The translations under genes were made by a program, and so were the position numbers. A stretch of 37,753 nt of DNA, from the NCBI GenBank assembly GCA_903892675.1, contig CAITJJ010000125.1:1-37753 (forward strand), given 5' to 3'. The stretch comes from an uncultured Hyphomicrobiales bacterium (GTDB lineage: Bacteria; Pseudomonadota; Alphaproteobacteria; Rhizobiales; Xanthobacteraceae). Shown in pieces: positions 7,546 to 36,206 of the stretch (position 1 is the stretch's first letter; every line of letters starts with the position of its first letter). The notes beneath the pieces were generated by a model. It did no database searches. It was given only the letters and a program-made list of their open reading frames with translations, and had not been told where the DNA came from.

Positions 7546-7583
7546 ATTGCGCAATAGCGAAAGAAAGATCGCATGGGTGAAAA
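7546..7583. promoter_or_regulatory. Tandem family-B operator upstream of the UbiD operon
   Basis: Two 18-bp sites start 20 bp apart: ATTGCGCAATAGCGAAAG at 7546 and the weaker AGATCGCATGGGTGAAAA at 7566. They match the perfect palindrome ATTTCGCTATAGCGAAAT found at 20801 in 15 and 10 positions. The first also contains the 12-bp palindrome TATTGCGCAATA. The same 20-bp tandem arrangement precedes five other units in the window, so this is probably an IclR-type binding site controlling the UbiD operon. Confidence 0.65.
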
Positions 7584-8427
7584 AGGTATGGCATCTCCTC
7601 TTTGGAGTCAAACGGCCGCGCGGCCGCCCCGCCGCTTCAGCCAGCACGACCAGCCGCTGCCGCGCGTACCCGATGCCGACGCCTGCGAGCACGCCAGTAA
7701 TGTTGAATTGAAGCAAGTCAAGTTGGCCAATACGCTCGCCATCGTGTTTGAGACGCCCTTCCGCCAGCGCGTCAGCTGTATGCGGTCGAGCTTCTGAGCC
7801 TGCAGAGCATTACCTCGGCTGCTGGAGCGACCCGGAGAAGCATTTTGACCCGGACCAGTGGGAGCCGAAATAGTGGGGCACAGCGCTGATGTTCGAGAGC
7901 AACGGCACCACGGAGAGAGCGATGGCACGCGAGGATGCCGGACCGATCGCGGCCGTCTCGCGACACCTAGATGGGGAACCACCATGCCGATCGTTGGCAC
8001 CAGAGCTTCATTTAATTTGCATGGCACCGACTCCGCCCGTGCCGTGGCGAGCACGCAGATTGGGCATAGAGCATTTCCAGCGGGACCCGCAATCACGCCC
8101 AACGTGCTATGGAGCCAGAGCCGATCACCCCCGAAAATGGTGTCCTTATTACATGCCGGAACACGGGCAGCGGGCGTTCGCTTGCGTCAGAATGAAGCAA
8201 GTCCGGCAGTTAAGCCATGAACAAGAAAATGAACGCGCCACTATAAACGAGGCGGCTGAATGTGATACGCGACGATAAAGCGTGTGCCGTCGGTAATTCT
8301 TTTGCGGGATGGATTTCCCGGTAAAGGCAATTTCAAGGGCCCTCCTAATCCATCGAAGAAGATTAAGAAAAGCGCCGCGTTTTAACAGCGAAAGGTCGGC
8401 GACGCTGCGCTCGCCGACATTTGATCG
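7584..8427. other. Gene-free stretch between the UbiD and LeuCDB operons
   Basis: About 840 bp carry only short overlapping open frames on both strands with no family I recognise and no ribosome binding site arrangement to choose one. A minus-strand reading around 7640-7760 (containing LDLLQFNITGVLAGVGIGYA) looks somewhat protein-like, and a plus-strand stretch ending SDPEKHFDPDQWEPK near 7870 does too. These may be scraps of decayed genes. No IS end, RNA gene or strong terminator was seen. Confidence 0.4.
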
Positions 8428-10158
8428 TTATTGTAATCGGTCCAGTTGCGCCAGGACCGCATCGCCCATGTCCCGGGTCGATAGAACCTTGTCGCCCGGC
8501 TGGGCGATGTCGGCCGTGCGAGCGCCCTGAGCGATTGCCGCTTCAACCGCCCGTTCCAGCCGGTCTGCTTCCTGCGCCAGCCCGAGCGAGAACCGCAGGC
8601 ACATGGCAAAGCTCATGATCGCGCCGAGCGGATTGGCCACGCCTTTGCCGGCAATGTCCGGCGCGCTGCCGTGAATCGGCTCATACAAAGCGTGACGGCC
8701 GCCATCGGCGCGCACCGGGCCCATCGACGCCGAGGGCAACATGCCGAGCGAACCGGCGACCATGGCGGCGCAGTCCGATAAAACGTCGCCGAACAGGTTT
8801 TCCGTCACCAGCACGTCGAACTGCTTCGGTGTGCGCACCAGCTGCATGGCGCAATTGTCGACATACATATGGCTGAGTTCGATGTCGGGATAATGCTGGT
8901 CGCGCAGGGCCTGCACCGTGTCGCGCCACAGCCCGCCGGTTTCGGTCAACACATTGGACTTGTCGACCGAACAGACGCGGCCGGAGCGCGTTCGCGCCAA
9001 GTCGAAGGCCGAGCGGGCGATCCGTTCCACTTCCGCGGTTGTGTACATGCAGGTGTTCACCGCGCGCTCGCCACCGCTGGCGATCTTCTCCCGGCCGCGC
9101 GGTGTGCCGAAATAGATGCCGCCGCACAGTTCGCGCACGATCATCATGTCGCAGCCGGCGATGACCTCGGGCCGCAGGCTCGATGAAGCGCCAAGCGCCG
9201 CCAATGTCCGCACCGGACGCAAATTGCAGAACAGGTCGAGATCCCTGCGGATGCGCAGCAGCTGATCGACCTTCCGCGCCTCGGCCGGAATCTTCTCGTA
9301 ATCCGGCGATCCGATAGCGCCGAATAAAATGGCGTCGGCGGCGACGATCTCGTCCCAGGTTTCCCGACGCATCAGCGAGCCATGAGCCTGCCACGCGGAC
9401 AGGCCGAAGAGTTCTTCGCGCAGTTCGATGGCAAGATTCCGTCTGGCGACGAACCATTCGGCGACCCGCCGCGCCTCGCCAACAACTTCCGGGCCGATGC
9501 CGTCACCGGCCAAAACCAAAATACGAGCCACGCGCGCGGTCTCCTCTCGTCGGTAAATCCAGGGTCTGCTTTCGCGGTCCCGGTCTTGATGGGCGCGGAT
9601 GCGCGCATCGAGCTTGAGCGTCATGCCGATCTCGTCGAGGCCTTCGAGCATTGCGTCGCGGCGCTCGGGATCGGTGGTGAAGGCAATCGCGCGCCCGGAT
9701 GGCGCGATGATGGTCTGCTTTTCCAGATCGACGGTGACATTGGATTGCGAAGCCGCTTCGATCTCGGCGGCGAGCGCCTTGACCTCTGCCTCCGGCAAAC
9801 GGATCGGCAGTACGCCATTCTGGAAACAATTCCAGTAGAAAATGTCGCCGAAACTGGGGGCGATGACGCAGCGGAATCCGAAGGCCGCCAGCGACCAGAC
9901 CGCGTGTTCGCGCGAGGAGCCGCAGCCGAAATTATCGCTGGCGACGAGGATCTTGGCGTCGCGGAAGCGCGGCTGGTTGAGCACGAAATCGGGGTTCTCG
10001 ACGCCGTCGCTCAGATAGCGCCAGGGCTCGAAACAATATGGCCCGAGATCGCCGCGCTTGTTGCCGATCAGCCGGTTGATCGGAATGATCACTTCGGTGT
10101 CGATATTGATCCGCATCAGCGGCGCCGCGGCGCCGGTCACCCGTATGAATTTGTCCAT
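8428..10158 (-). CDS. Fused LeuD-LeuB: isopropylmalate dehydratase small subunit joined to isopropylmalate dehydrogenase
   Basis: One 576-residue frame covers two enzymes. Residues 1 to about 205 form a complete LeuD swivelling domain (ASDNFGCGSSREHAVW near 90). From about residue 210 a complete LeuB follows: LAGDGIGPEVV, the substrate arginines in LLRIRRDLDLFCNLRPVR, the tyrosine of MYTTAEVERI, the lysine of DKSNV, LFGDVLSDCAAM and HGSAPDIAGKG. LeuC/LeuD isomerise 2-alkylmalates to 3-alkylmalates; LeuB oxidises and decarboxylates these to 2-oxoacids. A GTG at 9531 with GAGGAG nine bases before it could start LeuB alone, so separate LeuB may also be made. LeuC ends two bases upstream. Its place among catabolic genes suggests a branched dicarboxylate substrate rather than leucine synthesis, but this is inference. 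Confidence 0.9.
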   Translation of the reverse strand: MDKFIRVTGAAAPLMRINIDTEVIIPINRLIGNKRGDLGPYCFEPWRYLSDGVENPDFVLNQPRFRDAKILVASDNFGCGSSREHAVWSLAAFGFRCVIAPSFGDIFYWNCFQNGVLPIRLPEAEVKALAAEIEAASQSNVTVDLEKQTIIAPSGRAIAFTTDPERRDAMLEGLDEIGMTLKLDARIRAHQDRDRESRPWIYRREETARVARILVLAGDGIGPEVVGEARRVAEWFVARRNLAIELREELFGLSAWQAHGSLMRRETWDEIVAADAILFGAIGSPDYEKIPAEARKVDQLLRIRRDLDLFCNLRPVRTLAALGASSSLRPEVIAGCDMMIVRELCGGIYFGTPRGREKIASGGERAVNTCMYTTAEVERIARSAFDLARTRSGRVCSVDKSNVLTETGGLWRDTVQALRDQHYPDIELSHMYVDNCAMQLVRTPKQFDVLVTENLFGDVLSDCAAMVAGSLGMLPSASMGPVRADGGRHALYEPIHGSAPDIAGKGVANPLGAIMSFAMCLRFSLGLAQEADRLERAVEAAIAQGARTADIAQPGDKVLSTRDMGDAVLAQLDRLQ

Positions 10159-10160
10159 GG

Positions 10161-19683: not shown

Positions 19684-20661
19684 TTATTCCGGCAGGATGC
19701 CGAGCGAGGGCATGATCTTGCCCCAACTGTCGAATTCATCACTGACGAGTTGGCCCAATTCTGCCGGTGTGCTGCCGATGGCAACCGCGCCCTGCAACTT
19801 GAGTTGCGCGATGATATTGGGCTGCTTGAGCGCGTCGACTGCCGCCTTATTCAGCTTGTCGACGATGGCCTGTGGCGTTCCCGCCGGCGCGAAGATGCCA
19901 ATCCAGGTTGCCGTCACGACGCCGGGTACTGTTTCGGCAATCGTCGGCACGTCGGGCATATCAGGATCACGTTTGCTCTCCGCGAGCGCGATGATCCGGA
20001 TTGATCCCGCCTTGGCGTGCGGGAGGACCGCCGGCGTGGTGCCGAAGGCGATCGGGACATGACCGGCGATCAGGTCCTGAATGGCCGGCCCGCCGCCGCG
20101 GTAGGGAACATGCAGGATATTGATGCCCGCTTTCAGGTTCAGCAGCTCGCCGGCGATGTGATGCGCCGATCCGATGCCGGCGCTGCCGAAGCTCAGCTTG
20201 CCAGGGTTCTGTTTAGCGTAGGCGATCAACTCCGGCACGGTTTTCACCGGCACCGATGCGTTCACGGCCAAGGCCAGCACGACCGAGGCCGCGTTGGTGA
20301 TGGGGGCGAACGCCGTCTTGGGGTCGAGCGAATAGCTCTTCTGAAAATACTTGTTCATCGTGATCGGCGCATTGACCGTTATCAGCAGCGTGTAACCGTC
20401 GGGCGGGGCGGCAGCCACCATGTTAGTCCCCACAGTTCCGCCCGCGCCGGGGCGATTCTCAACGACGATCGGTTGACCTAACGCGTCGCTCATCGGGCCG
20501 CGGAGAACGCGCGCAATGAAATCGGTGGAGGCGCCGGGCGGATAGGGAGCGATCATCGTGATCGGCCGCGACGGATAGGTTTCCGCAAAAGCCGGCGCTG
20601 AACCGAACGCAGCCGTCGCAACGATGATGGCAGAGAATGTGATGGATCGAACGGCGTGCAT
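19684..20661 (-). CDS. Bug/TctC-type tripartite tricarboxylate transporter substrate-binding protein
   Basis: This 325-residue secreted binding protein starts at the ATG at 20661 behind GGGAGGAA. The signal peptide (FSAIIVATAAFGSAPAFA) ends before ETYPSRPI. The mature N-terminus has the Bug hallmark YPSRPITMIAPYPPGASTDF, then GQPIVVENRPGAGGTVG and GSAGIGSAHHIAGELL. Bug proteins bind carboxylates and often lack adjacent TctA/TctB membrane partners, as here. The region before it carries operators of both families, so its expression may integrate both regulators. Confidence 0.92.
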   Translation of the reverse strand: MHAVRSITFSAIIVATAAFGSAPAFAETYPSRPITMIAPYPPGASTDFIARVLRGPMSDALGQPIVVENRPGAGGTVGTNMVAAAPPDGYTLLITVNAPITMNKYFQKSYSLDPKTAFAPITNAASVVLALAVNASVPVKTVPELIAYAKQNPGKLSFGSAGIGSAHHIAGELLNLKAGINILHVPYRGGGPAIQDLIAGHVPIAFGTTPAVLPHAKAGSIRIIALAESKRDPDMPDVPTIAETVPGVVTATWIGIFAPAGTPQAIVDKLNKAAVDALKQPNIIAQLKLQGAVAIGSTPAELGQLVSDEFDSWGKIMPSLGILPE

Positions 20662-20742
20662 CCTGATTCCTCCCAATTCAAAACACCGGCTCTTTTTAAA
20701 CCCATGGCGATGTTTGATTGCGGCAAATCGTATCAGCCCCGA

Positions 20743-20774: not shown

Positions 20775-20800
20775 ACAAGCAGGTGCTGCCGTCAGTCGAG

Positions 20801-22044: not shown

Positions 22045-22051
22045 ACAGAAT

Positions 22052-24547: not shown

Positions 24548-25425
24548 AACCTGCTCCGTTTCTGTACGTCGCCCCCGAAACCGAGGATGAGCTGTTCGCG
24601 TTGATGCGGCAGCACGGCGCGGATGCGCGCCCGCTTGCGGGCGGCCAGAGCCTGGTGCCGATGATGAATTTTCGTGTCGCCGCGCCGATCGTCCTAGTCG
24701 ACATGAACCGGCTGCCGGGTTGGTCTTATTTGCGTCCTTCGGCGGATCATTTGGAGATCGGCGCGCTGACGCGGTACTCGACCATCGAAGATTCGGAGAT
24801 GGTCGGTGCGGATTGGTCCGTCGTCGCGGAGGGCGTGCGGAACATCGCGCATCGCGCCATTCGCAACCGGGGGACCATCGGCGGCAGCATCGCACTGGCC
24901 TATCCGGGCGCCGAATTCCCGCTGCTCTGCGTGGCTTTGAACGCGGTGGTACAGTTGCGCTCGCATCGCGGTGCGCGGGCCGTTCCGGCGCATGAGTTCT
25001 TTGTCGGCGAACTCAGCACGCTGCTTGATGACGATGAGGTGGTTTCCGCCGTCCATATTCCAAGACTTCCGAAAGGTGCGCGCAGCGCATTCTGCGAGGT
25101 CACGCGGCGGCACGGCGACTTTGCCATCGCGGCGAGTGCTGCGGTGCTCGATGTAGATGGCGCTGGAAACATTCGCGGCGCGAATATCGGCGCATCCAGC
25201 GGTACGGGCGAGCCGAAACGTCTGACGACAGCGGAACATGCGCTGGCCGGCCATCGGCCGTCGAAGGATCTGTTTTCCGGCATCGCCCGCGACGCCACGC
25301 GACAACTCGAAATCGGTGGTGATCTCCATTACCCGGCCGAATACCGGCGCGCGGTCCTCGAAGGGACGATCCGCACTGCACTCGAAACCGCGCAAAGCCG
25401 GGCGGAGCATTGTCATGTCGGATGA
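24544..25425 (+). CDS. Molybdenum hydroxylase FAD-binding medium subunit
   Basis: A 293-residue CoxM/XDH-medium-type subunit that carries FAD and relays electrons from the iron-sulfur subunit. The FAD-contacting motifs GGQSLVPMMNFRVAAP (about residues 33-48) and IRNRGTIGGSIALAYPGAEF (about 107-126) are present, followed by the CO_deh_flav_C-type domain. It overlaps the large subunit gene by four bases and the small subunit gene by eleven, so all three are translated as one operon. The ATG at 24544 is the natural start; the frame extends upstream through the previous gene. Confidence 0.93.
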   Translation: MKPAPFLYVAPETEDELFALMRQHGADARPLAGGQSLVPMMNFRVAAPIVLVDMNRLPGWSYLRPSADHLEIGALTRYSTIEDSEMVGADWSVVAEGVRNIAHRAIRNRGTIGGSIALAYPGAEFPLLCVALNAVVQLRSHRGARAVPAHEFFVGELSTLLDDDEVVSAVHIPRLPKGARSAFCEVTRRHGDFAIAASAAVLDVDGAGNIRGANIGASSGTGEPKRLTTAEHALAGHRPSKDLFSGIARDATRQLEIGGDLHYPAEYRRAVLEGTIRTALETAQSRAEHCHVG

Positions 25426-25918
25426 AACCAGCGTTCAGATTCAAGTCCGGGTCAATGGACGAATGGAATCCGGGCGGGCCGAGCCGCGCATGCTGCTGTC
25501 GGATTTTCTTCGCCACGCGCTCGGCGTCACCGGCGTTCATGTCGGTTGCGAGCACGGCGTCTGCGGAGCCTGCACGATATTGCTGAACGGCGCGATGGCG
25601 CGCTCGTGCCTGATGTTCGCGGTGCAGGCGGATGGCGCCGAAATAACAACGATTGAAGGGGTTGCGAGCGGCAAGACTCTGCATCCCGTGCAGGAAGCCT
25701 TCCGGGAGAACCATGGTTTGCAGTGCGGCTTCTGCACGCCCGGCATGGTCCTGACCGCGATCGATCTTCTGCGGCGTTATCCTAATCCTGATGAAAGCCG
25801 CGTGCGGGAAGAGCTGTCGGGCAACCTTTGCCGCTGCACCGGCTACGAGGGCATTGTCGCCGCCGTTTTGGACGCCGCCAAGAAGATCAATCTCGCCAAA
25901 TTGCCAAGCAAGTCATAA
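25415..25918 (+). CDS. Molybdenum hydroxylase 2Fe-2S small subunit
   Basis: This 167-residue ferredoxin-type subunit holds both 2Fe-2S clusters of the enzyme. The plant-type cluster motif is GCEHGVCGACTILLNG with a later cysteine in MARSCLMFA, and the second cluster is CGFCTPGM with CRCTGYEGI. The start at 25415 is preceded by GGAG eight bases upstream. With the two upstream genes it completes the heterotrimer; the Moco insertion chaperone usually found nearby is not in the window. Confidence 0.95.
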   Translation: MSDETSVQIQVRVNGRMESGRAEPRMLLSDFLRHALGVTGVHVGCEHGVCGACTILLNGAMARSCLMFAVQADGAEITTIEGVASGKTLHPVQEAFRENHGLQCGFCTPGMVLTAIDLLRRYPNPDESRVREELSGNLCRCTGYEGIVAAVLDAAKKINLAKLPSKS

Positions 25919-25942: not shown

Positions 25943-27559
25943 TCATGACGCGGAAGAATTCTTCTCGTCCGAGCGCAATCGAAACCGCTGGATTTTGCCG
26001 GTCGCCGTCTTTGGCAGGTCGGGCATGAACGCCACCCATTTCGGACATTTGAACGACGCCAACTGCGTCCTCACATGTGCGAGAATGTCCTCCTGCAGCG
26101 CAGGGGACGCCGTGTGCTGCTCGCGCAGAACGACGAAAGCCTTGGGCTTGATCAGGTGATCCTGGTCGCTGGCGCCGATCACCGCGGCTTCGAGGACCGA
26201 CGGATGGGTCGTCAGCGCGGCCTCGACCTCGGAAGGCGATACCCAACGACTTCCCACCCTCAGCATGTCGTCCTTGCGGCCGCTGAAATAGAAGTAACCT
26301 TCCTCGTCTTGGTAGGCGGTGTCACCCGTGTAAAACCAGCCGTCGCGCATGCATTGCGCCGTTTTTTCCGGCTTGTTCCAATAGTAGGTCGCGACGCTGT
26401 CGCCGCGAATGACGATCTCGCCGAGTTCGCCGGGCGGGAGCGGTTTGCCGTCACTGTCGGCGACGATGACGTCGTAGCCAGGCACAGCGCGGCCAAGACT
26501 GCCGCGCTTCACGTGCCCGATCTGGTTCGAGATATAGATGTGCAGCGCCTCGCTGGAGCCGATGGCTTCGAGCAGATCCCCGCCGGTCACCCGCTTCCAG
26601 TTGTCGAACAGGCTGGGGGGAACTACCTCGCCGCCGCCCAGGCTGACGCGCGCGGAGCTCAAATCGGCCGCAAACCCATTCTCGATCGCGGCCACCTGCT
26701 GAACCATGAGGGTCGAGACGGAGAAATAGATGGTCGGGCGCATGCGGGAGATGAACGCCAACGAATTCTCGGGCGTCACCCGTTCTTCCATCAGCAGGGC
26801 GGTCGCGCCGGTCCAAAGGACGAAGCCGAGCGAGTTATTGATGCCGAAGGCGAAGAACAGCTTGCCGACTGAATAAATCAGGTCGGTTTCGTTTATACCG
26901 AGCACACCCTCGGCGAAATGGATCGCTGTATAGATCATGTCCTTGTGCTGATGCACGGCCGCCTTCGGATCGCCGGTCGACCCGGAGGAGTAGAGCCAGA
27001 AGCATTCAGTCTGCGGCGTGGTCGGTTCCGGCTCCAGTAGCGGCATATGCGCATGCAGCAAATCCGGCAGGCGCAACCACCCGGCTGGGGCGTCCCCGGT
27101 TGTGATGCGATGTTCGACCGCGACGCCGTCGCCTTGCAGCGCGGGAGCCAGTTCAGCAAGGCAGACGGGCGAGGCCACGACCACCTTCGCCTGCGAATCC
27201 GCGAGCATGTAGGCGTAGGCGGATTGCTTCATGTAAGTGCTGACCGGCACCGCGATGGCGCCGAGGCGCGCCGTCGCCAGAAACGCGAAGTAAAACGCCG
27301 GCGTATCGCTCACGGCGATGATCACGCGATCTCCGGCCTTGACGCCGAGGCCGCGCAGCGCCGCTGCCATGCGGAAAGTGCCGTCGGCAAGCGCGGCATA
27401 GGTCATCTCGGACGCTTCGGACTTGACGGCGACCTTGCCGCCGCGACCGGCGGCGAGGTGGCGGTCGAGCAGCGCGACCGACAGATTGAATGTGGGGGCA
27501 AAGGAAATCCGGGCCGGCACCGCCGACCGGTCGACGACGACATCATGCGGATTTATCAA
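25943..27559 (-). CDS. Benzoate-CoA ligase-type acyl/aryl-CoA synthetase
   Basis: A protein of about 538 residues of the ANL superfamily that activates a carboxylic acid with ATP and CoA. Motifs: YSSGSTGDPKAAVHQHKD (phosphate loop), GSSEALHIYISN, FYTGDTAYQDEEGYFYFSGR, KDDMLRVGSRWVSPSEVE and the C-terminal PKTATGKIQRFRLR with the catalytic lysine. The pattern is that of benzoate-CoA ligases. I favour a TTG start at 27559 behind GAGGTGAGG, since the longer ATG-started frame (27601) would cover the operators. It converges on the hydroxylase genes and has its own operator pair. Confidence 0.9.
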   Translation of the reverse strand: MINPHDVVVDRSAVPARISFAPTFNLSVALLDRHLAAGRGGKVAVKSEASEMTYAALADGTFRMAAALRGLGVKAGDRVIIAVSDTPAFYFAFLATARLGAIAVPVSTYMKQSAYAYMLADSQAKVVVASPVCLAELAPALQGDGVAVEHRITTGDAPAGWLRLPDLLHAHMPLLEPEPTTPQTECFWLYSSGSTGDPKAAVHQHKDMIYTAIHFAEGVLGINETDLIYSVGKLFFAFGINNSLGFVLWTGATALLMEERVTPENSLAFISRMRPTIYFSVSTLMVQQVAAIENGFAADLSSARVSLGGGEVVPPSLFDNWKRVTGGDLLEAIGSSEALHIYISNQIGHVKRGSLGRAVPGYDVIVADSDGKPLPPGELGEIVIRGDSVATYYWNKPEKTAQCMRDGWFYTGDTAYQDEEGYFYFSGRKDDMLRVGSRWVSPSEVEAALTTHPSVLEAAVIGASDQDHLIKPKAFVVLREQHTASPALQEDILAHVRTQLASFKCPKWVAFMPDLPKTATGKIQRFRLRSDEKNSSAS

Positions 27560-27577
27560 AGACCTCACCTCACGTAA

Positions 27578-27615
27578 ATTTCGTAATAGCGATAAATACA
27601 ACGCTGGTGCGAAAA
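27578..27615. promoter_or_regulatory. Tandem family-B operator upstream of the CoA ligase
   Basis: ATTTCGTAATAGCGATAA (27578) and ACAACGCTGGTGCGAAAA (27598) start 20 bp apart and match the family-B palindrome in 14 and 11 of 18 positions. The nearer one ends 18 bp before the proposed TTG start of the ligase. Confidence 0.6.
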
Positions 27616-27665: not shown

Positions 27666-28862
27666 CTAAACCGTCTCTTCCTGACGCGTGATACGCAGGA
27701 CGAACAATGCCGCGAAAACGGCGACCAGGGTCGAGCCCAGCATCACCAATAACAGCGGCATCGGGCCGGTCTCCACCGAAACGAGCGTGGCCGCGAAGAA
27801 CGAGAGGGTGCCGCCGCCACCGACCTGCATCGCGCCGCCGAGCCCGGACGCAGTCCCGGCCAGATGCGGCCGCACGCTGACGATGCCGGAATTAGCGTTC
27901 GGCAAAATCAGCCCGTGGCCGAACAGCAGCATGACCGGTCCGAAAAACAGGATCGGGCTGAAGTAGCCGGCGGCCTTGAGCGTGATCGACAGTAGAGTAC
28001 CGGCCAAGGCGACGCCGGTGCCGACGAGTAGCATGACGTTGATGCCGTAGCGGCGGGAAAATCGCGTAGTACAATAGTTTCCTGCGATATAGCCGACCGA
28101 AATCAGCGCAAAGTAAAGACCGTAGCCGCTCGGCGACATGTTGAGGATCTGCGACGCGACGAACGGGGCCGTGCCGAGAAAGCCGTAGAATGTTCCGGTG
28201 GTCGCCGCGGCGGCGAGCGTATAGCCCCAGAAACGGCGCGAGGCGAGAAGTTCCGGGTAGTTGCTGATCTGGGCGACGAAGCTGGCGGATTTCTTGCTGT
28301 TGGTCTCTCCGAGATCGAACCAGACGATTGCGAAGGCGAAGATGCCGAAAGCAAACATCAAGGCAAAAGTCGCCTGCCAGCCGAACAGTTCGTCGAGACC
28401 GCCGCCGATGGCCGGTCCGATCATCGGCACGAGCGACATGCCCATCGTTATGTAGGCGATCTGGCTGGCCGCCGCGTCGGTTTCCATCGTATCGCGGACC
28501 ACGGCGCGGGAGAGAACCTGACCGGCTATCGCCGAAGCCTGCAGGACCCGCAAGAACAGCACCCATTCGATCGAGGGCGCGATAATGGTCGCGCCGGCGC
28601 TTAGGACGAAGATCATGAAGCAGCAGAGCATCACCGGCCGGCGGCCATAGCGGTCGGAAAGCGGGCCGATGACCAGTTGAAGAATGCCGCAACTGACGAG
28701 ATAGATTGACAGAGTGAGCTGGACGACGGCGTAGCCCGTCTGAAAATGCTGCGCGATGCCCGGTAGCGCCGGCAGATGCACGTTAATTGCAAGAGACCCG
28801 GTCGCAGCGGCGATCATGAGCGTGAAACCGCGCGGCGGTGTCGTGCGGTCGAACAATCTCAC
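27666..28862 (-). CDS. Bcr/CflA-type MFS transporter
   Basis: This 398-residue membrane protein has about 12 transmembrane helices and the DHA1/Bcr-CflA pattern. Motif A is GPLSDRYGRRPVML after helix 2, and the proline-rich SLVPMIGPAIGGGLDELFGWQATF ends the first half. Bcr/CflA proteins export drugs or metabolites by proton antiport; in a catabolic operon it could instead move the substrate or a toxic intermediate. Its start overlaps the stop of the dehydrogenase gene by four bases. It is the last gene of the operon starting at 33653. Confidence 0.87.
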   Translation of the reverse strand: MRLFDRTTPPRGFTLMIAAATGSLAINVHLPALPGIAQHFQTGYAVVQLTLSIYLVSCGILQLVIGPLSDRYGRRPVMLCCFMIFVLSAGATIIAPSIEWVLFLRVLQASAIAGQVLSRAVVRDTMETDAAASQIAYITMGMSLVPMIGPAIGGGLDELFGWQATFALMFAFGIFAFAIVWFDLGETNSKKSASFVAQISNYPELLASRRFWGYTLAAAATTGTFYGFLGTAPFVASQILNMSPSGYGLYFALISVGYIAGNYCTTRFSRRYGINVMLLVGTGVALAGTLLSITLKAAGYFSPILFFGPVMLLFGHGLILPNANSGIVSVRPHLAGTASGLGGAMQVGGGGTLSFFAATLVSVETGPMPLLLVMLGSTLVAVFAALFVLRITRQEETV

Positions 28863-29827
28863 GGCAACTCGACTTCATTGTTGAGCGGCAGGCCGTCGCG
28901 AAAGCGGGCCGCATTCGTGAAAATCGCCTGCATCTTTCGGCGAAAAGCATCGGATGTCCCGCCGCTGTAGTGCGGCGTCAGCACGACATTGTCCAGGGCG
29001 CAGAGCGGATGATCGGGGGAAACCGGCTCGACCGCGAATGCATCGATACCAGCACCAAGCAGATGCTCTGATCGCAGCGCCTCGCAGAGGGCTTGCTCAT
29101 CAATCAGCCCGCCACGTGCGGTATTGATGAGGATTGCACCCGGTTTCATTTTGGCAATGGCGGCCGCGTCGATCATCCCGGCCGTATCCGGGCCGAGTGG
29201 AACGTGCAGCGTCAGCACATCCGAAAGCCGCAGGATGTCGTCAAAGGTTCGATAGGAAATTCCCAGCTCGCGCTCGCGCGCGGGCGGCAGCGGGCCTGAT
29301 CTGTTCGTGTAGATGCCTTGCGTGCCGAATGCCTTGAATCGCTCAGCCGCCGCCAGGGCGATGCGGCCCATGCCGACATAGCCGATCGTTCTGCCTGTGA
29401 GTTCAGGAGAAGTCGGCCGCAGGTCATGCCGATGAAAGCGCCCTTGCCGCAGTTCCTTGTCGGCGAAAACCAGATGACGGCAGACGGCCAGAGTGAGAAG
29501 CACGGTATGCTCCGCAACACTTTCCGCCGTTCCGTCCGCGGTCAGCGCCAGGCGGATGCCTCGGCCCTTGAGGGCAACGAGGTCGACAGTGTCGTGATAG
29601 CCGACGCCCTGATGGATCACGAGTTGCAGTTTCGGCGCTGCCGCGACCAGACTGGCGGGAAAGGTCGCGTTCGCCTGGATCGCGATCTCACAATCGGCAA
29701 TTTTTGCGTACCGCTCGGGGTCCGAATTGCGGTCGAGCGTGACGAGCGTCATTCCGGGCGGAACCATGGCACGCATGATGTCGTAGAGCGATTCGGAGGC
29801 GTGCGCAGTGTAGAAGACCTTCATCAT
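28859..29827 (-). CDS. D-2-hydroxyacid dehydrogenase family protein
   Basis: A 322-residue NAD(P)-dependent dehydrogenase of the 2-hydroxyacid family, reducing 2-oxoacids or the reverse. The Rossmann motif is GYVGMGRIALAAAERF (about residues 149-164); the catalytic Arg (NTARGGLIDE), Glu (DAFAVEPV) and His (LTPHYSGGT) are all present. The acidic residue that usually follows the second strand and favours NAD appears replaced in GIYTNRSG, hinting at NADP use. It follows the AtuA-like gene with no gap and overlaps the transporter gene. In this operon it may act on an oxo- or hydroxyacid released by the pathway. Confidence 0.9.
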   Translation of the reverse strand: MMKVFYTAHASESLYDIMRAMVPPGMTLVTLDRNSDPERYAKIADCEIAIQANATFPASLVAAAPKLQLVIHQGVGYHDTVDLVALKGRGIRLALTADGTAESVAEHTVLLTLAVCRHLVFADKELRQGRFHRHDLRPTSPELTGRTIGYVGMGRIALAAAERFKAFGTQGIYTNRSGPLPPARERELGISYRTFDDILRLSDVLTLHVPLGPDTAGMIDAAAIAKMKPGAILINTARGGLIDEQALCEALRSEHLLGAGIDAFAVEPVSPDHPLCALDNVVLTPHYSGGTSDAFRRKMQAIFTNAARFRDGLPLNNEVELP

Positions 29828-31651
29828 TTACTCGCGCCGCGTTGCCGTCATGTCCTCGGCAAGGGGAGCCGCGAGCTTCCTGGCGAGGGAAAGCGGCACC
29901 GGAATTTTCATTTCCAGCGCCATTTGACCGAAAGCCTTGCCTTGCGGATCGATGCGGCACGACGCCATGCCGCCGCCGCCGAGGGCATTGGACAGCAGGA
30001 AATTGAACGCATTCAGCCCCGGCGCCTCGAAGCGCACCACGGGACCCTGTACGAGCTCCGCGAAATGCGCCGCCAAGCGTTCCGGCGTCAGCGCGTGCCG
30101 CAGCACCGGCACGTATTCTGGCTTGCGGGCGAAGATAGCGATATTGGACGAGTCGCCTTTGTCGCCCGAGCGTGCATAGGCAAGGTCAAGCAGATTGGCC
30201 TCGACCGTCGGTTCGTCAGATTTCATCTCATCGGCGGCCTGCGTTGGTTGCATGGGCGCGTATCCGCCATCGGTCGGGACCTTAACCTCAAAGGCGGGGT
30301 CATGGGCGACTTGAACCCGTGGCGGCAGAAGCACCGCCTTGTCGATAAAGAACGTGAAAAGTTTCACGACTGGCGTCGGTTTCGGGCGGCCGTTGTAAAT
30401 GCCGGTCGTGCCCGGCGCAAAGCTCAGGCCGATAGAGCCGATCTCGCGCGCGAAGATGTCGATGGCCTCGCGGTCGTTATGCTCGACGACAACGCGCAAT
30501 AGAACTTCGCGCGTCGCGCGCGCGCGGGCCTTGGCGCCATAGGATGCTTCCGACCCGAGCGCCTCGGAATGAGTGGCCGAGAAGTCCGCGATGTTTCGTT
30601 CCCGAAACAGCATGCGCGCTCGCGCAATAATCGCTTCCGCAGTGCGCTCCGCCTTGGCGACGGCGTCGGGACCGACGATCGATATCGAGGCCACGGCGCG
30701 GTACCCGTCCTGGTGGGTCGCGGAAACCTTGTATTGCTTGGTCGATGGATTGCCGCGAGCACCACCGACCTTCACGCGGTTCGCGCCATCCTGCGCGACC
30801 GTTACATGAGACCAGTCGGCGACGACATCGGGCAGAATATAGGCAGCGGGATCGCCTACTTCATAGAGGACCTGTTCGGCGACCACGGCCGGTACAATCA
30901 GTCCGCCGGTGTTGGCGGGCTTGGTCAGGACGAATGTACCGTCCGCGTGACATTCGGCGATCGGGTAGCCGATATTGTGCCAGTCGGGCACATCACGCCA
31001 ATCGGTATGGGTTCCGCCCGTCGCCTGCGGCCCGCATTCCAGAACATGTCCGGTCAGACTGCCGGCCGAGAGTTTGTCGTAGTCGTCCACCGTCCAGCCG
31101 AATTCGTGCATCAGAATGCCGAGCGCCAGGGCGCTGTCGGCGCAGCGGCCAGTAACGACGATGTCCGCGCCGTTCTTCAGCGCCGCGGCGATGGGCAGTG
31201 CACCGAGATATGCGTTCGCCGTCAGCAGACGTGGCGGCAAGGCGTCGCCCGAGCACGCCTCGCGAATGCCGCGCGCGCGCAAGGTCTCGACCATCGGCAT
31301 CAGATCATCGCCCTCGGCGACCGCGACGCGCAATTGCAGCCCCAGTTCGGCGGCGAGTGCCTCAAGCGCCTTCTTGCAGCCCTGCGGATTGACGCCACCG
31401 GCATTGCTGACGATTCTGATGTTGCGCCGTGCGATTTCCGGCAGCGAGCGCTTTAGATAACCGACAAAATCGGGCGGAAAGCCGGCGTTCGGATCCTTCA
31501 TCTTGGCGCGCGCCAAAAGCGACATGGTCACTTCGGCCAGATAGTCCATCATCAGATAATTGACATCCGCGCGCAGCAATTGCGGGACTGCCATGGGACT
31601 GTCGCCCCAGGCTCCCGATGCGCCGCCGATCCGAACAATCTTGTCACTCAC
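29828..31651 (-). CDS. AtuA-like (DUF1446) protein
   Basis: The 607-residue protein matches the acyclic terpene utilisation AtuA family. The N-terminus IVRIGGASGAWGDSPMAVPQ and the following DYLAEVTMSLLARAK begin the large AtuA domain (to about residue 450). The C-terminal domain begins near VEANLLDLAYARSGDKGDSS (about residue 480) and ends as a small alpha-beta unit. In Pseudomonas, AtuA is encoded with a geranyl-CoA carboxylase cluster for citronellol/geraniol use, but its reaction is not firmly known. No biotin carboxylase is encoded here. It overlaps the crotonase gene by eight bases, so it belongs to the CoA-ester operon. Confidence 0.9.
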   Translation of the reverse strand: MSDKIVRIGGASGAWGDSPMAVPQLLRADVNYLMMDYLAEVTMSLLARAKMKDPNAGFPPDFVGYLKRSLPEIARRNIRIVSNAGGVNPQGCKKALEALAAELGLQLRVAVAEGDDLMPMVETLRARGIREACSGDALPPRLLTANAYLGALPIAAALKNGADIVVTGRCADSALALGILMHEFGWTVDDYDKLSAGSLTGHVLECGPQATGGTHTDWRDVPDWHNIGYPIAECHADGTFVLTKPANTGGLIVPAVVAEQVLYEVGDPAAYILPDVVADWSHVTVAQDGANRVKVGGARGNPSTKQYKVSATHQDGYRAVASISIVGPDAVAKAERTAEAIIARARMLFRERNIADFSATHSEALGSEASYGAKARARATREVLLRVVVEHNDREAIDIFAREIGSIGLSFAPGTTGIYNGRPKPTPVVKLFTFFIDKAVLLPPRVQVAHDPAFEVKVPTDGGYAPMQPTQAADEMKSDEPTVEANLLDLAYARSGDKGDSSNIAIFARKPEYVPVLRHALTPERLAAHFAELVQGPVVRFEAPGLNAFNFLLSNALGGGGMASCRIDPQGKAFGQMALEMKIPVPLSLARKLAAPLAEDMTATRRE

Positions 31652-32444
31652 GGCTGTTGCCTCCGCCCTCGGCCCAGCGCGGCGGCCGCCGCTCGTTGAA
31701 TGCGGCTAATCCTTCGCGTGCATCGTCGGTGCGCGATGCGACAGCGATCAACGACTCGGCCAACGCCAGCGCCTCCGAGAAGCTCATCGTTTCCATCGCA
31801 GCTATGGCATATTTGCCGCGCCGTAGGGCAACCGGCGACATCTCGCTCAGCCGCGTCACCAGCCAGTCGACTTTGGCGTCCAACTCGGCGGCCGGCACGA
31901 CGTAATTGGCGATGCCGATCTCTTTGGCGCGCGCTGCGTCAATGAGCTCACCGGTGAGGCAAAGCTCGTTGATGTGGCGGGCATGCAACATGCTGCGCAA
32001 ATAGACCAGCACCTGCATGGCAAAGACGCCGACGCGCGCCTCCGGCAAGCCGAATCTGGCATGGTCGGCAACGACGGCGAGATCGCACAGCGACATCAAG
32101 CCCATGCCGCCGGCGACACAAGCGCCATTGACTCGGGCGACGAGCGGCAAGCCGACGTCGCGCACGGCGCGGGCAAGCCTGCCGAAGTCCGTCATCGGTT
32201 CGTCGAGCCCGAGCGTGAACGTGCCGGTCCCGCCGGTAAGGTCGGCCCCGGCGCAAAATGCCTTGTCGCCCGCTCCGGTCAGGACGATTGCGCGCAGCGA
32301 AGAATCCTGCGCGGCGTCTAAGATCGCGCGGTGAATTCCGGCAATCACATTGGGGTTGATGGCGTTGCGCCGCTCTTCGCGATCGATCCAGATCCAGAGC
32401 GCTTTGCCGCGCGTCTCGCAGCGAATTTCCGGTTTGTCCGGCAT
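31644..32444 (-). CDS. Crotonase-family protein 2 (methylglutaconyl-CoA-hydratase-like)
   Basis: A 266-residue crotonase with oxyanion-hole motif AFCAGADLTGG and core VNGACVAGGMGLMSLCDLAV followed by ARFGLPEARVG. The glutamate that hydratases carry at the GGGCE position is a glycine here (GGMG), whereas the second one (LPE) is kept. The same change is common in LiuC-type methylglutaconyl-CoA hydratases, so a tertiary-alcohol-forming hydratase, isomerase or other crotonase chemistry is possible. The ATG at 32444 follows GGAGGG and is immediately adjacent to the stop of the CoA-transferase gene. Confidence 0.85.
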   Translation of the reverse strand: MPDKPEIRCETRGKALWIWIDREERRNAINPNVIAGIHRAILDAAQDSSLRAIVLTGAGDKAFCAGADLTGGTGTFTLGLDEPMTDFGRLARAVRDVGLPLVARVNGACVAGGMGLMSLCDLAVVADHARFGLPEARVGVFAMQVLVYLRSMLHARHINELCLTGELIDAARAKEIGIANYVVPAAELDAKVDWLVTRLSEMSPVALRRGKYAIAAMETMSFSEALALAESLIAVASRTDDAREGLAAFNERRPPRWAEGGGNSRE

Positions 32445-33653
32445 TCAACCCTCCTGCTTTAGTTCGGAGAGAACCTCGTCGGTGTGCTCGCCCAGATTGG
32501 GCGCAAGCCGCCGGATGGACGCGGGCGACTTGCTGAACTTGACCGGGAAACGGCAGACCTTGAGCGTTCCTTCGGTCGGATGCTCCATGTCGATGAAGAA
32601 ATTCACCGCCTTGAGATGTGGATCGTCGAAAAGCTCGTCGATCTTGTTCACCGCCGAGGCTGGAATGTCGTTCTCATTGAGAAGTTCGATCCATTCGCGG
32701 GTCGTGCGGGCCGGAAGAAAAGTCGCCAAGAAGCGGCCCATGTCCTCCGCATGCTGTGTGCGCGTTTCCTGACTCTTGAAGCGATCGTCGGTATCGAGCA
32801 GTTCGGGACAGCCGACCAGCCGCGAGAAGGCGCGCCAGTGTTTGTCCGTATAGACGACCAGCGCCAGATGGCCGTCCTTGGTCGGATAGGGCCCGCGCGT
32901 TCGCGACAGCAGGCGCTGATAGCCCATCTTGCCTATCGGTGGCACGAAAGCGCCGCCGCCCATGTGATCGGCCAGAACGAATTGCGCCATCGTCTCCAGC
33001 ATCGGCACTTCGATCTCCTGGCCTTCGCCGGTCATTGCGCGATGATGCAGAGCGCTGATGATGGCGATCGCAAGATAGAGGCCGACGACGCGGTCGCAAA
33101 TATTGACCGGCGCATAGCGCGGTGCGCCATCGACCGCCTGGAACAGGCCGGCAATACCGGACCCGGCCTGCGTCAGGTCGTCATAGACGGCGCGGCCGGC
33201 ATAGGGCCCGTCGGAGCCGTAGCCGACCGCGCCGCAATAGACGATCTTCGGATTGATGGCCGAGACGCTCGCATAATCGAGGCCGAGCCGCTGCATCGCC
33301 TGCGGGCGTATATTGTAGGTTAGCACATCCGCATCGACGATCAGCGCGGACAGCGCGGCGCGGCCCTCCGCCGATTTCAGATCGAGGACGACGCTGCGCT
33401 TGTTCCGGTTGCTTTGCAGGAAAAGCGGGCCCATTCCTTCGTGTCGAAATGGCCCCACCCAGCGCATGGAGTCGCCCGGACCCGACTCGATCTTGACGAC
33501 ATCGGCGCCGAGATCGCCCAGAATCTGGGTTGCCGCCGGCCCCATCACGACCGTTGTGAGATCGAGCACCCGCACTCCGCTGAGCGGGCCGGGCGCGCTA
33601 TCGGAGTGTTGCCGGCGAGGCTTGAACGGTCCCGCTCCCGAAGCCTCCACCAT
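32445..33653 (-). CDS. CaiB/BaiF (family III) CoA-transferase 2
   Basis: This is a 402-residue family III CoA-transferase. Seen are the N-terminal GVRVLDLTTVVMGPAATQIL, DVVKIESGPGDSMRW, NRNKRSVVLDLKS, and APVNICDRVVGLYLAIA with the expected catalytic aspartate. It begins the minus-strand operon that continues with crotonase 2, the AtuA-like protein, the hydroxyacid dehydrogenase and the exporter. GGAGG lies just upstream of the ATG at 33653. Compared with CoA-transferase 1 it is of the formyl-CoA/succinyl-CoA:carboxylate branch but differs in many positions, so the two probably activate different acids. Confidence 0.9.
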   Translation of the reverse strand: MVEASGAGPFKPRRQHSDSAPGPLSGVRVLDLTTVVMGPAATQILGDLGADVVKIESGPGDSMRWVGPFRHEGMGPLFLQSNRNKRSVVLDLKSAEGRAALSALIVDADVLTYNIRPQAMQRLGLDYASVSAINPKIVYCGAVGYGSDGPYAGRAVYDDLTQAGSGIAGLFQAVDGAPRYAPVNICDRVVGLYLAIAIISALHHRAMTGEGQEIEVPMLETMAQFVLADHMGGGAFVPPIGKMGYQRLLSRTRGPYPTKDGHLALVVYTDKHWRAFSRLVGCPELLDTDDRFKSQETRTQHAEDMGRFLATFLPARTTREWIELLNENDIPASAVNKIDELFDDPHLKAVNFFIDMEHPTEGTLKVCRFPVKFSKSPASIRRLAPNLGEHTDEVLSELKQEG

Positions 33654-33675
33654 CGACCTCCACCTGTGTACTCAT

Positions 33676-33713
33676 ATTTCGCGATAGCGTAAGATATATC
33701 GCAGCTGCGAAAA
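33676..33713. promoter_or_regulatory. Tandem family-B operator upstream of the CoA-transferase 2 operon
   Basis: ATTTCGCGATAGCGTAAG (33676) and ATATCGCAGCTGCGAAAA (33696) start 20 bp apart; the second contains the perfect 12-bp palindrome TCGCAGCTGCGA. They match the family-B consensus in 15 and 13 of 18 positions. The near edge is 22 bp from the start codon at 33653. Confidence 0.7.
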
Positions 33714-33857
33714 AATATGAGGTGGCGGGGGGCAAGTCAAGTGCGCGGATGCCCGGCCGTAGCGCCTAAAAGGCAAATATTTTCCGGATCATAAGGATAG
33801 CAGGAAATGCGATTTGACGCCCGGCCGATTGACAGCGTTGCCCCTGCGTGCGAGCCA

Positions 33858-33895
33858 ATTTCGCTATTGCGAATATTATTTCGCATCTAAATCTG
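33858..33895. promoter_or_regulatory. Tandem family-B operator upstream of MmgE/PrpD 2
   Basis: ATTTCGCTATTGCGAATA (33858) is a near-perfect family-B site. Its partner 20 bp on, ATTTCGCATCTAAATCTG (33878), keeps only the left half. They end 12 bp before the start at 33908 and lie inside the longer open frame from 33848, which supports the later start. Together with the sites at 33676 they form a divergent control region of about 250 bp. Confidence 0.65.
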
Positions 33896-33907
33896 ACGGC
33901 ATCGGAC

Positions 33908-35263
33908 ATGCAACCCTCATTGACCCAGGTACTCGGCGATTTTGTCGCCATGACGAAAACGTCCGATATTCCGGCTGCCGTCGTGACGCGCGCGAAGGTC
34001 AGCCTGGTGCACAATCTGACCATGGCAATGGCCGGGCGTTCGCGAGAAACCGTCGCCCATGTGATGGCCAAACAGTGCTGGCCGCTGCCCGCACAAGCGA
34101 CGCTGCTGCACGACGGAACTCTTGTAAGCGCCGAAGCGGCGGCCTTCGCCAATGGCGCCTTGATGCATGCGCGGTCGCAGGACGACACCCACGCCGGATC
34201 GACCTCGCATCCGGGCGCGGCCGTTATGCCGGCCGCCCTGGCGATTGCCGAAGCGGAAGGCCGCACCGGCGCCGAATTCCTCACCGCCGTTGTGCTTGGC
34301 TACGAGATCCTTGCGAGGATCGGTCGTGACTTCGATCATCTGGTGACCGCGCGCGGCTTTCGCGCCGCCGCGGTGTTCGGCGGCTTCGGCTCGACGGTGG
34401 CGGCGACAAAGCTATTGAGGCTATCCGCCGAGCAAAGCGGGCATGCTCTCGGACTTGCGGCTCATCTCGCGGGCGGACTGACGCAGGTCTGGGAAGAGGG
34501 CAGTGCCGAAGGCCCGCTGCAGCTTGGCTTTGCCGCGCGCAACGGCCTTCTGGCGGCGCAGGCCGCGCAAGCGGGCGCAACTTCGGCACGCGCGATATTG
34601 GAAGGTAGGCGCGGGTTCTATCGCGCCTATGCCGGCACCAGCGAACCTGCCGTCGAGGCCTTGGACGGCCTTGGGGAAACCTGGCAGTTCGCGGAGATAA
34701 CGGTCAAACCCTATCCAGTCTGCGCCATTCTGCAGGGCCCGGTCGATGCGATGCTGCATCTCTTGCGTACCCATGCCATCGCGCCGAGCGCCGTGCAGGA
34801 GGTTGTCCTTGAGCTCAATCCCTATGAAGCCGCCTATCCCGGTGTCGATAATCCCGGCCCCTTTGCAAGCAATATTGCGACCAAGATGAGCGCGCACTTC
34901 TCTATGGCGCTCACGCTCAGCGACCGGCGCATGACCATGGACGATCTTTTCCGCTTCGGTGACAGCACAATCGAGGCGCTTGCTTCGCGCGTGCGTGTGG
35001 TCCCCGATGCGACGGTCCCGATGCGGTTAAGCCGGTTGCAGGTTCATACGCTGGATGGTCGTACCTATGTGCGCGAGGTCGTGGTGCCGGTCGGCCAGCC
35101 CAGCTTCGACGAAGTCGCGGCCTTTGCTCGGTCCTTGACGGTCGAGATCGGCACAGGCGTTGAAAGGATCGACCGACTCGTTGCCGAGATTACGAACCTG
35201 GACAAAGCCCCCAACCTGGCCGGGTTGATAACGAGCCTTTGCGCCGACCGGTCGAACGTTTGA
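33908..35263 (+). CDS. MmgE/PrpD family protein 2
   Basis: This 451-residue MmgE/PrpD-family protein shows the active-site stretch ALMHARSQDDTHAGSTSHPG (about residues 84-103), AAAVFGGFGSTVAA and VKPYPVCAILQGPVDAML. The D-D-T and HP pattern is shared with the family member at 13064, but the rest differs enough for a different substrate. The family contains 2-methylcitrate dehydratase and cis-aconitate decarboxylase. The start at 33908 was chosen because the upstream ATG (33848) would put the operators inside the gene; no strong ribosome binding site is visible for either. It is followed by the IclR2 gene 51 bp downstream. Confidence 0.85.
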   Translation: MQPSLTQVLGDFVAMTKTSDIPAAVVTRAKVSLVHNLTMAMAGRSRETVAHVMAKQCWPLPAQATLLHDGTLVSAEAAAFANGALMHARSQDDTHAGSTSHPGAAVMPAALAIAEAEGRTGAEFLTAVVLGYEILARIGRDFDHLVTARGFRAAAVFGGFGSTVAATKLLRLSAEQSGHALGLAAHLAGGLTQVWEEGSAEGPLQLGFAARNGLLAAQAAQAGATSARAILEGRRGFYRAYAGTSEPAVEALDGLGETWQFAEITVKPYPVCAILQGPVDAMLHLLRTHAIAPSAVQEVVLELNPYEAAYPGVDNPGPFASNIATKMSAHFSMALTLSDRRMTMDDLFRFGDSTIEALASRVRVVPDATVPMRLSRLQVHTLDGRTYVREVVVPVGQPSFDEVAAFARSLTVEIGTGVERIDRLVAEITNLDKAPNLAGLITSLCADRSNV

Positions 35264-35314
35264 GGGCGGCAAGATTTTTCTTTTGAATTCCACGTCGATA
35301 AAGTAGCTTTTCGC

Positions 35315-36055
35315 ATGTCAAAAATCGTCGCCCGCACCCTGGATTTCATCGAACTCTTCGCGAACGAGAAGCGGCCACTCACGCTTTCGGACATCTCGCG
35401 GATTCTCGATATTCCGTTCTCCAGTTGTCACGACGTACTGCAGGAATTGCAGGCGCGCGGATATGTCTACGAGATAGGCCCGCGCGCTGGCTTTTATCCG
35501 ACGGTGCGCCTGAGCAACCTTGCCAAGATCATCAGTCAGCACGATCCGATTCTCCTGCGGGCGGAAGCTCAGTTGAAGAAGTTATGCGATGAGATCGATG
35601 AATCGGTATCGCTCGCCATTGCCGGCGATATGACAGCGAGCTATCTGATCGTGAACGAGCCGTCGCATCCCTTGCGGTTTCTGGTTCGCGTCGGCGACAG
35701 CGTCCGCAGCCTGCACGCCACCTCCGCCGGCAAGGCCTACTTGGGAAGCCTCTCGCCCGAGAAATTGGAGGCTTATCTGAAGACCGCCAAGCTCGCGCCG
35801 CTCACACACAACACGATCAAATCGAAAGCCGGCTTGCGGACGGATCTGGAAAAATCAAATCAACGCGGCTGGTTCCTGAATCGCGAGGAGAGCTTTGAGG
35901 ACGCGACCACGATCTCGGCGCGGTTCAACTGGAATAATGCGGTGTATATCATCACCATCGCCGGAACCACGTCGCGCATGGACAGCAAACTCGAGCGTGC
36001 CATCAAGCTGCTGACCCAAACGGCGCGATCATTGGATAGCTCGGCGCGTATCTGA
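35315..36055 (+). CDS. IclR-family transcriptional regulator 2
   Basis: A 246-residue IclR-type regulator with a winged helix at residues 5-65 (SDISRILDIPFSSCHDVLQE contains the recognition helix) and an effector domain holding VGDSVRSLHATSAGKAYL and RTDLEKSNQRGWFLNREES. It lies in the middle of the family-B operators and is co-oriented with MmgE/PrpD 2, whose promoter carries such a pair. I infer that it is the factor binding family-B sites in the window. It has few residues in common with IclR1 beyond the fold, in line with the different operator sequences. Confidence 0.92.
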   Translation: MSKIVARTLDFIELFANEKRPLTLSDISRILDIPFSSCHDVLQELQARGYVYEIGPRAGFYPTVRLSNLAKIISQHDPILLRAEAQLKKLCDEIDESVSLAIAGDMTASYLIVNEPSHPLRFLVRVGDSVRSLHATSAGKAYLGSLSPEKLEAYLKTAKLAPLTHNTIKSKAGLRTDLEKSNQRGWFLNREESFEDATTISARFNWNNAVYIITIAGTTSRMDSKLERAIKLLTQTARSLDSSARI

Positions 36056-36168
36056 ATAACGGCTTCGCCCGAAGCTGTATCCCGGGCCGGCCATCGGTTC
36101 GGAGTCCTGCGCGGTCCGGCGGACGACGTCCCAACAGTCTGATTGACTTAGCTCCGCCCTCAGCTTAA

Positions 36169-36206
36169 TTTTCGGCAGTGCGATAGAAATATCGCTGTGG
36201 CGAAAT
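36169..36206. promoter_or_regulatory. Tandem family-B operator upstream of acyl-CoA dehydrogenase 2
   Basis: TTTTCGGCAGTGCGATAG (36169) and ATATCGCTGTGGCGAAAT (36189) start 20 bp apart and match the family-B palindrome in about 11 and 14 of 18 positions. The near edge lies 24 bp before the GTG start at 36231. Confidence 0.6.

Follow-up and report, generated by a model that had tools for sequence, protein, structure and literature searches.

The IclR family of transcriptional regulators was surveyed in 181 groups by Suvorova and Gelfand (2021; PMC8222616), and the parts of that survey drawn on here describe tetramers, three-box sites, a group 1 motif GKTYCRYW3-4RYGRAMC and, in 94 orthologous groups, tandem palindromes with centers 18-22 nt apart, corresponding to two DNA turns. 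A repressor of this family, PheR of Sphingobium sp. SHPJ-2, has a 44-bp footprint from -21 to +23 and substrate-dependent derepression, according to the excerpt of PMC13273656 used here. In this study, a contig of an uncultured Hyphomicrobiales bacterium (CAITJJ010000125.1, 37,753 nucleotides, called the window below) was analyzed for a family of palindromic sites, family B, located before seven transcription units, and for the regulator IclR2 encoded among them.

The family B motif is the even-length palindrome ATTTCGC-N4-GCGAAAT. The sites, their spacing, the promoter-like geometry and the presence of same-kind sites beside iclR2 elsewhere were read from the sequence, and they suggest, with an estimated probability of roughly 0.8, that IclR2 is the dedicated tetrameric, effector-released repressor of a seven-unit regulon. 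The operators and the two IclR genes are as follows; distances run from the first base of the TTGAC box to the operator on the strand of the target gene.

7546..7583, minus strand: tandem operator of the UbiD operon, sites 7546 and 7566; TTGACT starts at 7611 (minus strand), 28 bp before
20801..20818, minus strand: lone perfect palindrome that lies upstream of the gene for the TctC-type receptor; TTGAC absent at the usual spacing
22007..22044, plus strand: tandem operator of the molybdenum hydroxylase operon; TTGACT at 21979, 28 bp before
27578..27615, minus strand: tandem operator of the CoA ligase gene; TTGACT starts at 27641 (minus strand), 26 bp before
33676..33713, minus strand: tandem operator of the CaiB2-ECH2-AtuA-2HADH-MFS operon (2HADH, 2-hydroxyacid dehydrogenase); TTGACT starts at 33740 (minus strand), 27 bp before
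33858..33884, plus strand: three-box operator of MmgE/PrpD 2 (MmgE2)-IclR2, a palindrome with a half-site 20 bp on; TTGACA at 33829, 29 bp before
36169..36206, plus strand: tandem operator of acyl-CoA dehydrogenase 2 (ACAD2); TTGACT at 36143, 26 bp before
35315..36055, plus strand: IclR2, IclR-family regulator with HTH_IclR and IclR_C domains; proposed binder and autoregulated repressor
14627-15382: IclR1, an IclR paralogue in the same window

The operators of the window resemble the group 1 tandem type, as excerpted from PMC8222616, in the TTTCGC/GCGAAA half-site that fits the core, in the tandems, in the catabolic targets and in autoregulation. The best family B site, TTTCGC-N4-GCGAAA, matches the group 1 core KTYCRY-W3-4-RYGRAM; the other sites deviate from it, their spacer is sometimes not A/T, and the family does not follow the outer G...C of the general consensus. 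A WTT subgroup in the same excerpts likewise lacks the outer G...C but has a 3-base spacer, and the even-length subgroup is of the NGT type, in contrast to family B with its A/T outer bases (21 of 26 across the sites) and 4-base spacer. The distance between centers, 20 bp in five of the six tandem loci, falls within the published range. The introduction of the survey describes family members as generally regulating their own gene plus one or two operons next to it, against seven units here; since the predicted regulogs range from 1 to 55 COGs in the same source, the seven-unit size alone is not exceptional. PheR is similar in its coverage of the start site, which is predicted here, and different in its core, GCAACG (PMC13273656, in the excerpt). 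The PcaU/PobR operators share with MmgE2-iclR2 the palindrome plus third half-site and differ in their GTTCGAT-type motif (PMC8222616, in the parts used), and IclR2 itself scored 82.9 bits on the pcaR_pcaU model TIGR02431, below the cut-off of 284.75 for the PcaR/PcaU/PobR subfamily. Operators of this motif type, arranged as 20-bp tandems and overlapping the promoter, have already been published for the IclR family, and the example is a further instance of a known design.

Family B sites and the predicted promoters

The sites were searched in the window and in the whole draft genome (3,605,245 bases in 404 contigs, 85.5% complete), of which the window makes up about 1%. With up to three mismatches, the exact palindrome had five matches in the window, compared to 0.03 expected from dinucleotide shuffling; these were all of its matches in the draft genome (5/5), and the backwards control pattern had none. 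The looser form TTTCGC-N4-GCGAAA with at most one mismatch was present at 36 genome sites (18 for the backwards control), seven of them in the window versus 0.31 expected from the outside rate (Poisson P = 4e-8). The remaining 29 were outside, and the lone palindrome is not cluster-specific.

A matrix was trained on the primary sites of all loci except one, and the left-out primary site was ranked among the non-training window positions. It came first for UbiD, TctC, CoA ligase, MmgE2 and ACAD2, second for CaiB2 and third for the molybdenum hydroxylase. The partner search, in which the best second position was taken among 98 offsets per locus, returned exactly +20 or -20 in five of the six tandem loci, namely, UbiD, molybdenum hydroxylase, CoA ligase, CaiB2 and ACAD2 (binomial P about 2e-8). 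Three second copies, at 7566 (8.0 bits), 22027 (3.3 bits) and 27598 (9.6 bits), score weakly alone and are recognized by their position. At MmgE2, the copy at 33878 is a clean half-site only, with a whole-site score of -7.1; the partner offsets +17 and +20 score -2.3 and -4.2, neither of them a full site, and the MmgE2-iclR2 operator is therefore described as three boxes. The 13 18-mers listed in the first-pass annotation were all recovered in place, with 33878 reduced to a half-site, and its description of six loci with two copies 20 bp apart was upheld for five. The TctC site at 20801 is solitary, having no 20-bp partner, and an extra fair match (33942-33959, 15.8 bits) was located inside the MmgE2 start, 84 bp from the operator.

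Among the 29 palindromes outside the window, eight were inspected and none of these eight had a partner at 20 bp. The three best of these (L056, L057 and L060; 18.6-22.6 bits) were rejected as regulon members elsewhere, being partnerless with scores of -37.0 to -8.9 at ±20; no TTGAC was found at 24-29 bp from them. The combined promoter-plus-site pattern had six matches in the genome, four in the window, where the UbiD and CoA ligase operators were missed, and two outside (C189 and C248), neither with a site at +20 (scores -24.6 and -20.8). A matrix count against shuffles (nine matches of at least 14 bits, mean 0.75 in shuffles) was circular, the matrix having been trained on the same sites, and was not used as evidence. 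The family B sites are confirmed as real, far beyond chance.

The promoter-operator geometry is new relative to the earlier reading of the sequence. In all six tandem loci a TTGAC -35 box is situated 26-29 bp ahead of the operator; the pentamer occurs 70 times on both strands of the window. Assuming a 17-bp spacer, the predicted -10 hexamers, read by eye, are weak to fair: TACCTT for UbiD, TAGTCT for the molybdenum hydroxylase, TATTTT for both CoA ligase and CaiB2, GAGCCA for MmgE2 and TAATTT for ACAD2. The operator overlaps the predicted -10 by 1-3 bases in five loci and lies directly next to it in MmgE2; in all six, the predicted start point is inside the operator. This is the placement of a repressor-type operator in 6/6 tandem loci, at promoters that are themselves predicted, and it points to repression. 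A promoter consensus scan of 20700-37753, with UbiD outside that range, gave eight promoter-like sites compared to 4.5 in shuffles and listed two of the five covered tandem promoters, CaiB2 and CoA ligase; the predicted promoters therefore rest on geometry and not on consensus strength. For the molybdenum hydroxylase, MmgE2 and CoA ligase, the open reading frames (ORFs) start inside the operators or ahead of them, and later in-frame ATGs are available for the first two. For TctC, the closest promoter-like sequence in the direction of the gene (20754-20727) lies downstream of the 20801 site.

IclR2, its orthologues and IclR1

IclR2 is a protein of 246 amino acids with the two domains of the IclR family (PF09339, E = 9.3e-11; PF01614, E = 1.2e-27). 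Its nearest solved sequence is the efflux-pump regulator TtgV (PDB 2xrn/2xro, E = 2e-15), from which it differs in the recognition-helix residues; the TtgV structure is cited in the excerpted survey for tetrameric DNA binding by IclR proteins (PMC8222616). The recognition helix SSCHD is identical in IclR2 and four orthologues (5/5). Via TtgV, Ser37 and Asp40 align to positions 30 and 33 of the survey, which in the parts used reports that Ser30 strongly and Asp33 weakly accompany even-length motifs and that Arg33 is strongly avoided; the residues of IclR2 agree with the even-length family B palindrome under these published specificity rules.

The orthologues compared were from G648 (69-70% identity), a plasmid of Neorhizobium sp. 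SOG26 (L050, 60%), G060 (L052, 56%) and G473 (L051, 55%). Their loci, of 60.0, 40.7, 12.4 and 17.7 kb, respectively, were scanned with the matrix built from the window only, with six loci around distant IclR homologues (32-37% identity) as control. The first-ranked site was within 160 bp of iclR2 in all four orthologue loci: before iclR2 in L050 (19848, 19.5 bits) and L051 (12089, 18.2 bits), and on its 3' side in G648 (29529, 25.6 bits, before CaiB2) and L052 (1086, 19.4 bits, before an ABC operon). Top scores were 18.2-25.6 bits in these loci versus 16.4, 13.9, 13.1, 11.1, 11.5 and 16.7 bits in the controls. The comparison with intergenic regions of related genomes that the first-pass annotation had recommended thus yielded same-kind sites beside iclR2 in four other genomes, and this phylogenetic footprinting supports its proposal of IclR2 as the likely binder. 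The pairing of two dimers two turns apart and the linking of the genes into one regulon are likewise supported, at the level of sequence comparison.

The two best sites in the 60 kb of G648 form a tandem with 20-bp spacing, and TTGAC is 29 bp away. A 20-bp tandem before CaiB2 is kept in all three orthologue loci that carry this gene (G648, L050 and L051), with TTGAC 27-29 bp ahead (27-28 bp in L051 and L050), and, as a matter of position only, the layout recurs in L050 (before the homologues of MmgE2 and of TctC), in L051 (before an MFS gene) and in L052 (before the ABC operon). When the best 38-bp tandem score was set against the largest of 20 shuffles, G648 reached 38.3 versus 19.0, L051 21.4 versus 16.0 and L050 27.1 versus 19.0; four of the six control loci had no tandem exceeding their shuffles. 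Two further results were set aside: the 8/8 count of TTGAC in the relatives, where the units had partly been chosen with TTGAC in view, and a pattern search (two matches in four genomes or records, both iclR2 loci), the pattern having been drawn up after the loci were seen. The L050 tandem (5216-5253), above all 20 shuffles, is 15 kb from iclR2, 24 bp after TTGAC and before an ORF of 332 amino acids, which had no Pfam match at 1e-8 and is a candidate for a further regulon gene in Neorhizobium.

CaiB2, AtuA and ACAD2 recur as neighbors of iclR2 in G648, L050 and L051, ECH2 in L050 and L051, and MmgE2 and TctC in L050; none of the six was found in the 12.4 kb of L052. For UbiD, the molybdenum hydroxylase and the CoA ligase, no match was obtained in the four orthologue loci (E 1e-8; in one comparison also >38% identity). 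UbiD was rejected as a conserved regulon member: a 51% identical UbiD of G648 is located elsewhere on the contig, far from iclR2, with no family B site in the surrounding 4.3 kb (best 7.6 bits), and UbiD may therefore have joined the regulon within the lineage of the window. IclR2 matches with E <= 1e-30 were present in 14 of 296 family genomes, its own included, of which one besides its own was close (70%), and absent at this threshold from all 20 same-genus genomes listed. This distribution, together with the Neorhizobium plasmid copy, suggests horizontal spread of the IclR2 system.

Sites of another type, GTTTGATATACCAAC, were detected before iclR1 at 14485/14505 (three and zero mismatches) and on the minus strand at 16373/16393 (two and four mismatches), 20 bp apart in both cases. 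They are odd-length and lie at the divergent promoters iclR1/MmgE1 (14485-14519) and HMGL/CaiB1 (16359-16393). An inverted-repeat search around iclR1 missed them; they were found by eye and then counted, with five window matches at up to four mismatches, the fifth of which (15206) is unpaired and inside the gene. The tandem of this type is probably the IclR1 operator. IclR1 was disfavored as the family B binder because of the different tandem sites at its own promoter, and it also carries Arg at position 33 (PMC8222616 numbering), the residue avoided with even-length motifs.

Proposed repression and alternatives

From the features above, we infer the binding of IclR2, its tetrameric state, repression and an inducer. 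IclR2 would bind ATTTCGC-N4-GCGAAAT, two copies of which, 20 bp apart at five promoters, would present four alternating half-sites about 10 bp apart, and the three boxes at its own MmgE2-iclR2 promoter would serve autoregulation. A tetramer of two dimers on one helix face, lying at the predicted -10 and start, would exclude RNA polymerase. Release of IclR2 would be brought about by an inducer, for which an acid or CoA ester formed in the pathway is the probable candidate, and all units including iclR2 would open together. The lone site upstream of TctC may work differently.

It is very improbable that the repeats are not operators at all and reflect chance, the composition of promoter regions or a small mobile repeat. 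The 29 of 36 looser single palindromes outside the window would fit such an origin; the enrichment, the leave-one-out ranks, the 20-bp partner, the promoter geometry on the gene strand and the recurrence of this layout ahead of orthologous genes of other genomes argue against it. If the sites are operators, their binder could be IclR1 or another IclR paralogue, with IclR2 controlling something else: IclR1 is encoded in the same window and the genome holds six matches to IclR2, itself included. We give this only a slight chance, given the distinct tandems before iclR1 and at 16373/16393 and the family B-type sites beside iclR2 in four other genomes, where the neighbors are partly different. A role of IclR2 mainly in activation, or a dual one as repressor without and activator with inducer, appears unlikely. 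The excerpted survey includes activators and dual regulators in the family (PMC8222616), and the TctC site 20801 precedes the nearest promoter-like match; against this, all six tandem operators abut or overlap the predicted -10 and cover the predicted start, where polymerase exclusion is expected, and the repressor PheR protects the same region (PMC13273656, in the excerpt).

Several observations weigh against IclR2 as the dedicated repressor. The TctC site lacks promoter-operator geometry, members of the family can also activate (PMC8222616, in the parts used), and some of the five further IclR2 matches in the genome might bind similar sites. In L052, the best tandem scored 16.7 versus a shuffle maximum of 16.4, and the unit in promoter register only 15.5. 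The units before CaiB2 (18.7), MmgE2 (17.8) and TctC (5.7) in L050 and before the MFS gene in L051 (15.3) do not exceed the largest shuffle and are supported by position only. Two of the six control loci beat their shuffles, L053 with 17.6 versus 14.3 and L084 with 29.3 versus 7.7. L053 has a TTTCAC-type palindrome (10639) at the own promoter of its homologue, and L084, about 4 kb away from its homologue, a strong TTTCA-type tandem (6411) that has no TTGAC; the tandem style therefore probably belongs to a wider IclR group, and the CGC core goes with IclR2. The recognition helix in L053 is STCFN compared to SSCHD in IclR2, and the change of CGC to CAC with that of HD to FN is a possible specificity switch.

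Genes of the proposed regulon and the pathway

If transcribed as drawn, the operon extents being inferred, the regulon would consist of 18 genes in seven units, including iclR2 and the following.

6015..7490, minus strand: UbiD-family decarboxylase, nearest solved chain 6h6v
4899-5957, minus strand: NMT1-like binding protein, downstream in the UbiD unit (2500..5957 for this and the next three genes, presumably co-transcribed)
4039-4902, minus strand: ABC ATPase, same unit
3282-4079, minus strand: permease, same unit
2500-3132, minus strand: UbiX-like flavoprotein, same unit
19684..20778, minus strand: TctC-type periplasmic receptor
22025..25918, plus strand: three-subunit molybdenum hydroxylase (large, FAD, 2Fe-2S); ORF start 22025 inside the operator, alternative in-frame ATG 22052
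25943..27601, minus strand: benzoate-CoA-ligase-family protein
32445-33653, minus strand: CaiB2, in unit 27666..33653
31644-32444, minus strand: ECH2, same unit
29828-31651, minus strand: AtuA, same unit
28859-29827, minus strand: 2HADH, same unit
27666-28862, minus strand: MFS, same unit
33848..35263, plus strand: MmgE/PrpD 2, leading the iclR2 unit; translation probably begins past the operator, at an in-frame ATG near 33908
36231..37403, plus strand: ACAD2

The first-pass annotation had taken the motif to define the members of one pathway; this calls for a qualification, the operators showing co-regulation and not shared membership of a pathway. Among solved chains, UbiD was closest to 6h6v (E = 1.4e-117), which we take to be the furan-2,5-dicarboxylate decarboxylase HmfF, and to its variant 6h6x (9e-115), with the next at 1.6e-52; chain 6h6v is labeled only as a generic UbiD. 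The hmf pathway for furan dicarboxylate/furoate was defined by an HmfF-type UbiD with UbiX, the furoyl-CoA dehydrogenase HmfABC, the furoyl-CoA synthetase HmfD and HmfE. Relative to an hmf-like cluster of Caballeronia (L098), identities were 48% for UbiD, 60% for UbiX and 42, 39 and 60% for the molybdenum hydroxylase subunits, compared to 30% for the CoA ligase and 27% for ECH2. A full hmf pathway appears doubtful: UbiD, UbiX and the molybdenum subunits fit, in contrast to the CoA ligase and the hydratase. The substrate may be guessed, with some reason, to be a furan or a related heteroaromatic carboxylate. In PMC12064950, the regulators listed with an hmf cluster are of the LysR and AraC types. 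Word searches in a single open-access library gave no paper joining an IclR regulon with AtuA, CoA-transferase and acyl-CoA dehydrogenase, and no match mentioning IclR among those on HmfF, furandicarboxylic or furoyl-CoA regulation.

Two other genes of the window were noted. A single ORF at 8428-10362 combines an aconitase C-terminal (small-subunit) domain with a following isocitrate/isopropylmalate dehydrogenase domain, the large subunit being encoded just upstream (10161-11570), and looks like an unusual fusion. At 404-1321, a DUF2390 protein has 42% identity over 110 amino acids to a TIGR02444-family protein whose gene is flanked by those of UbiD and UbiX on a plasmid of Bosea (L097).

Tentatively, and with more doubt than confidence, one IclR repressor with a stereotyped cassette (TTGAC, 26-29 bp, four half-sites) may join the HmfF-like UbiD/UbiX, the molybdenum hydroxylase and the benzoyl-type CoA ligase to an AtuA-CaiB-ECH-acyl-CoA dehydrogenase-MmgE module in an undescribed furan/heteroaromatic (di)carboxylate route, the peripheral operons having been recruited to an older mobile core regulon. 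As regulation biology, the system is one more case of a published rule. For the catabolic route, the operator set provides a testable list of co-regulated genes with a regulator named on comparative support, and it predicts the sign of control and the transcription start positions; the iclR2 or CaiB2 promoter could act as a sensor for the inducer.

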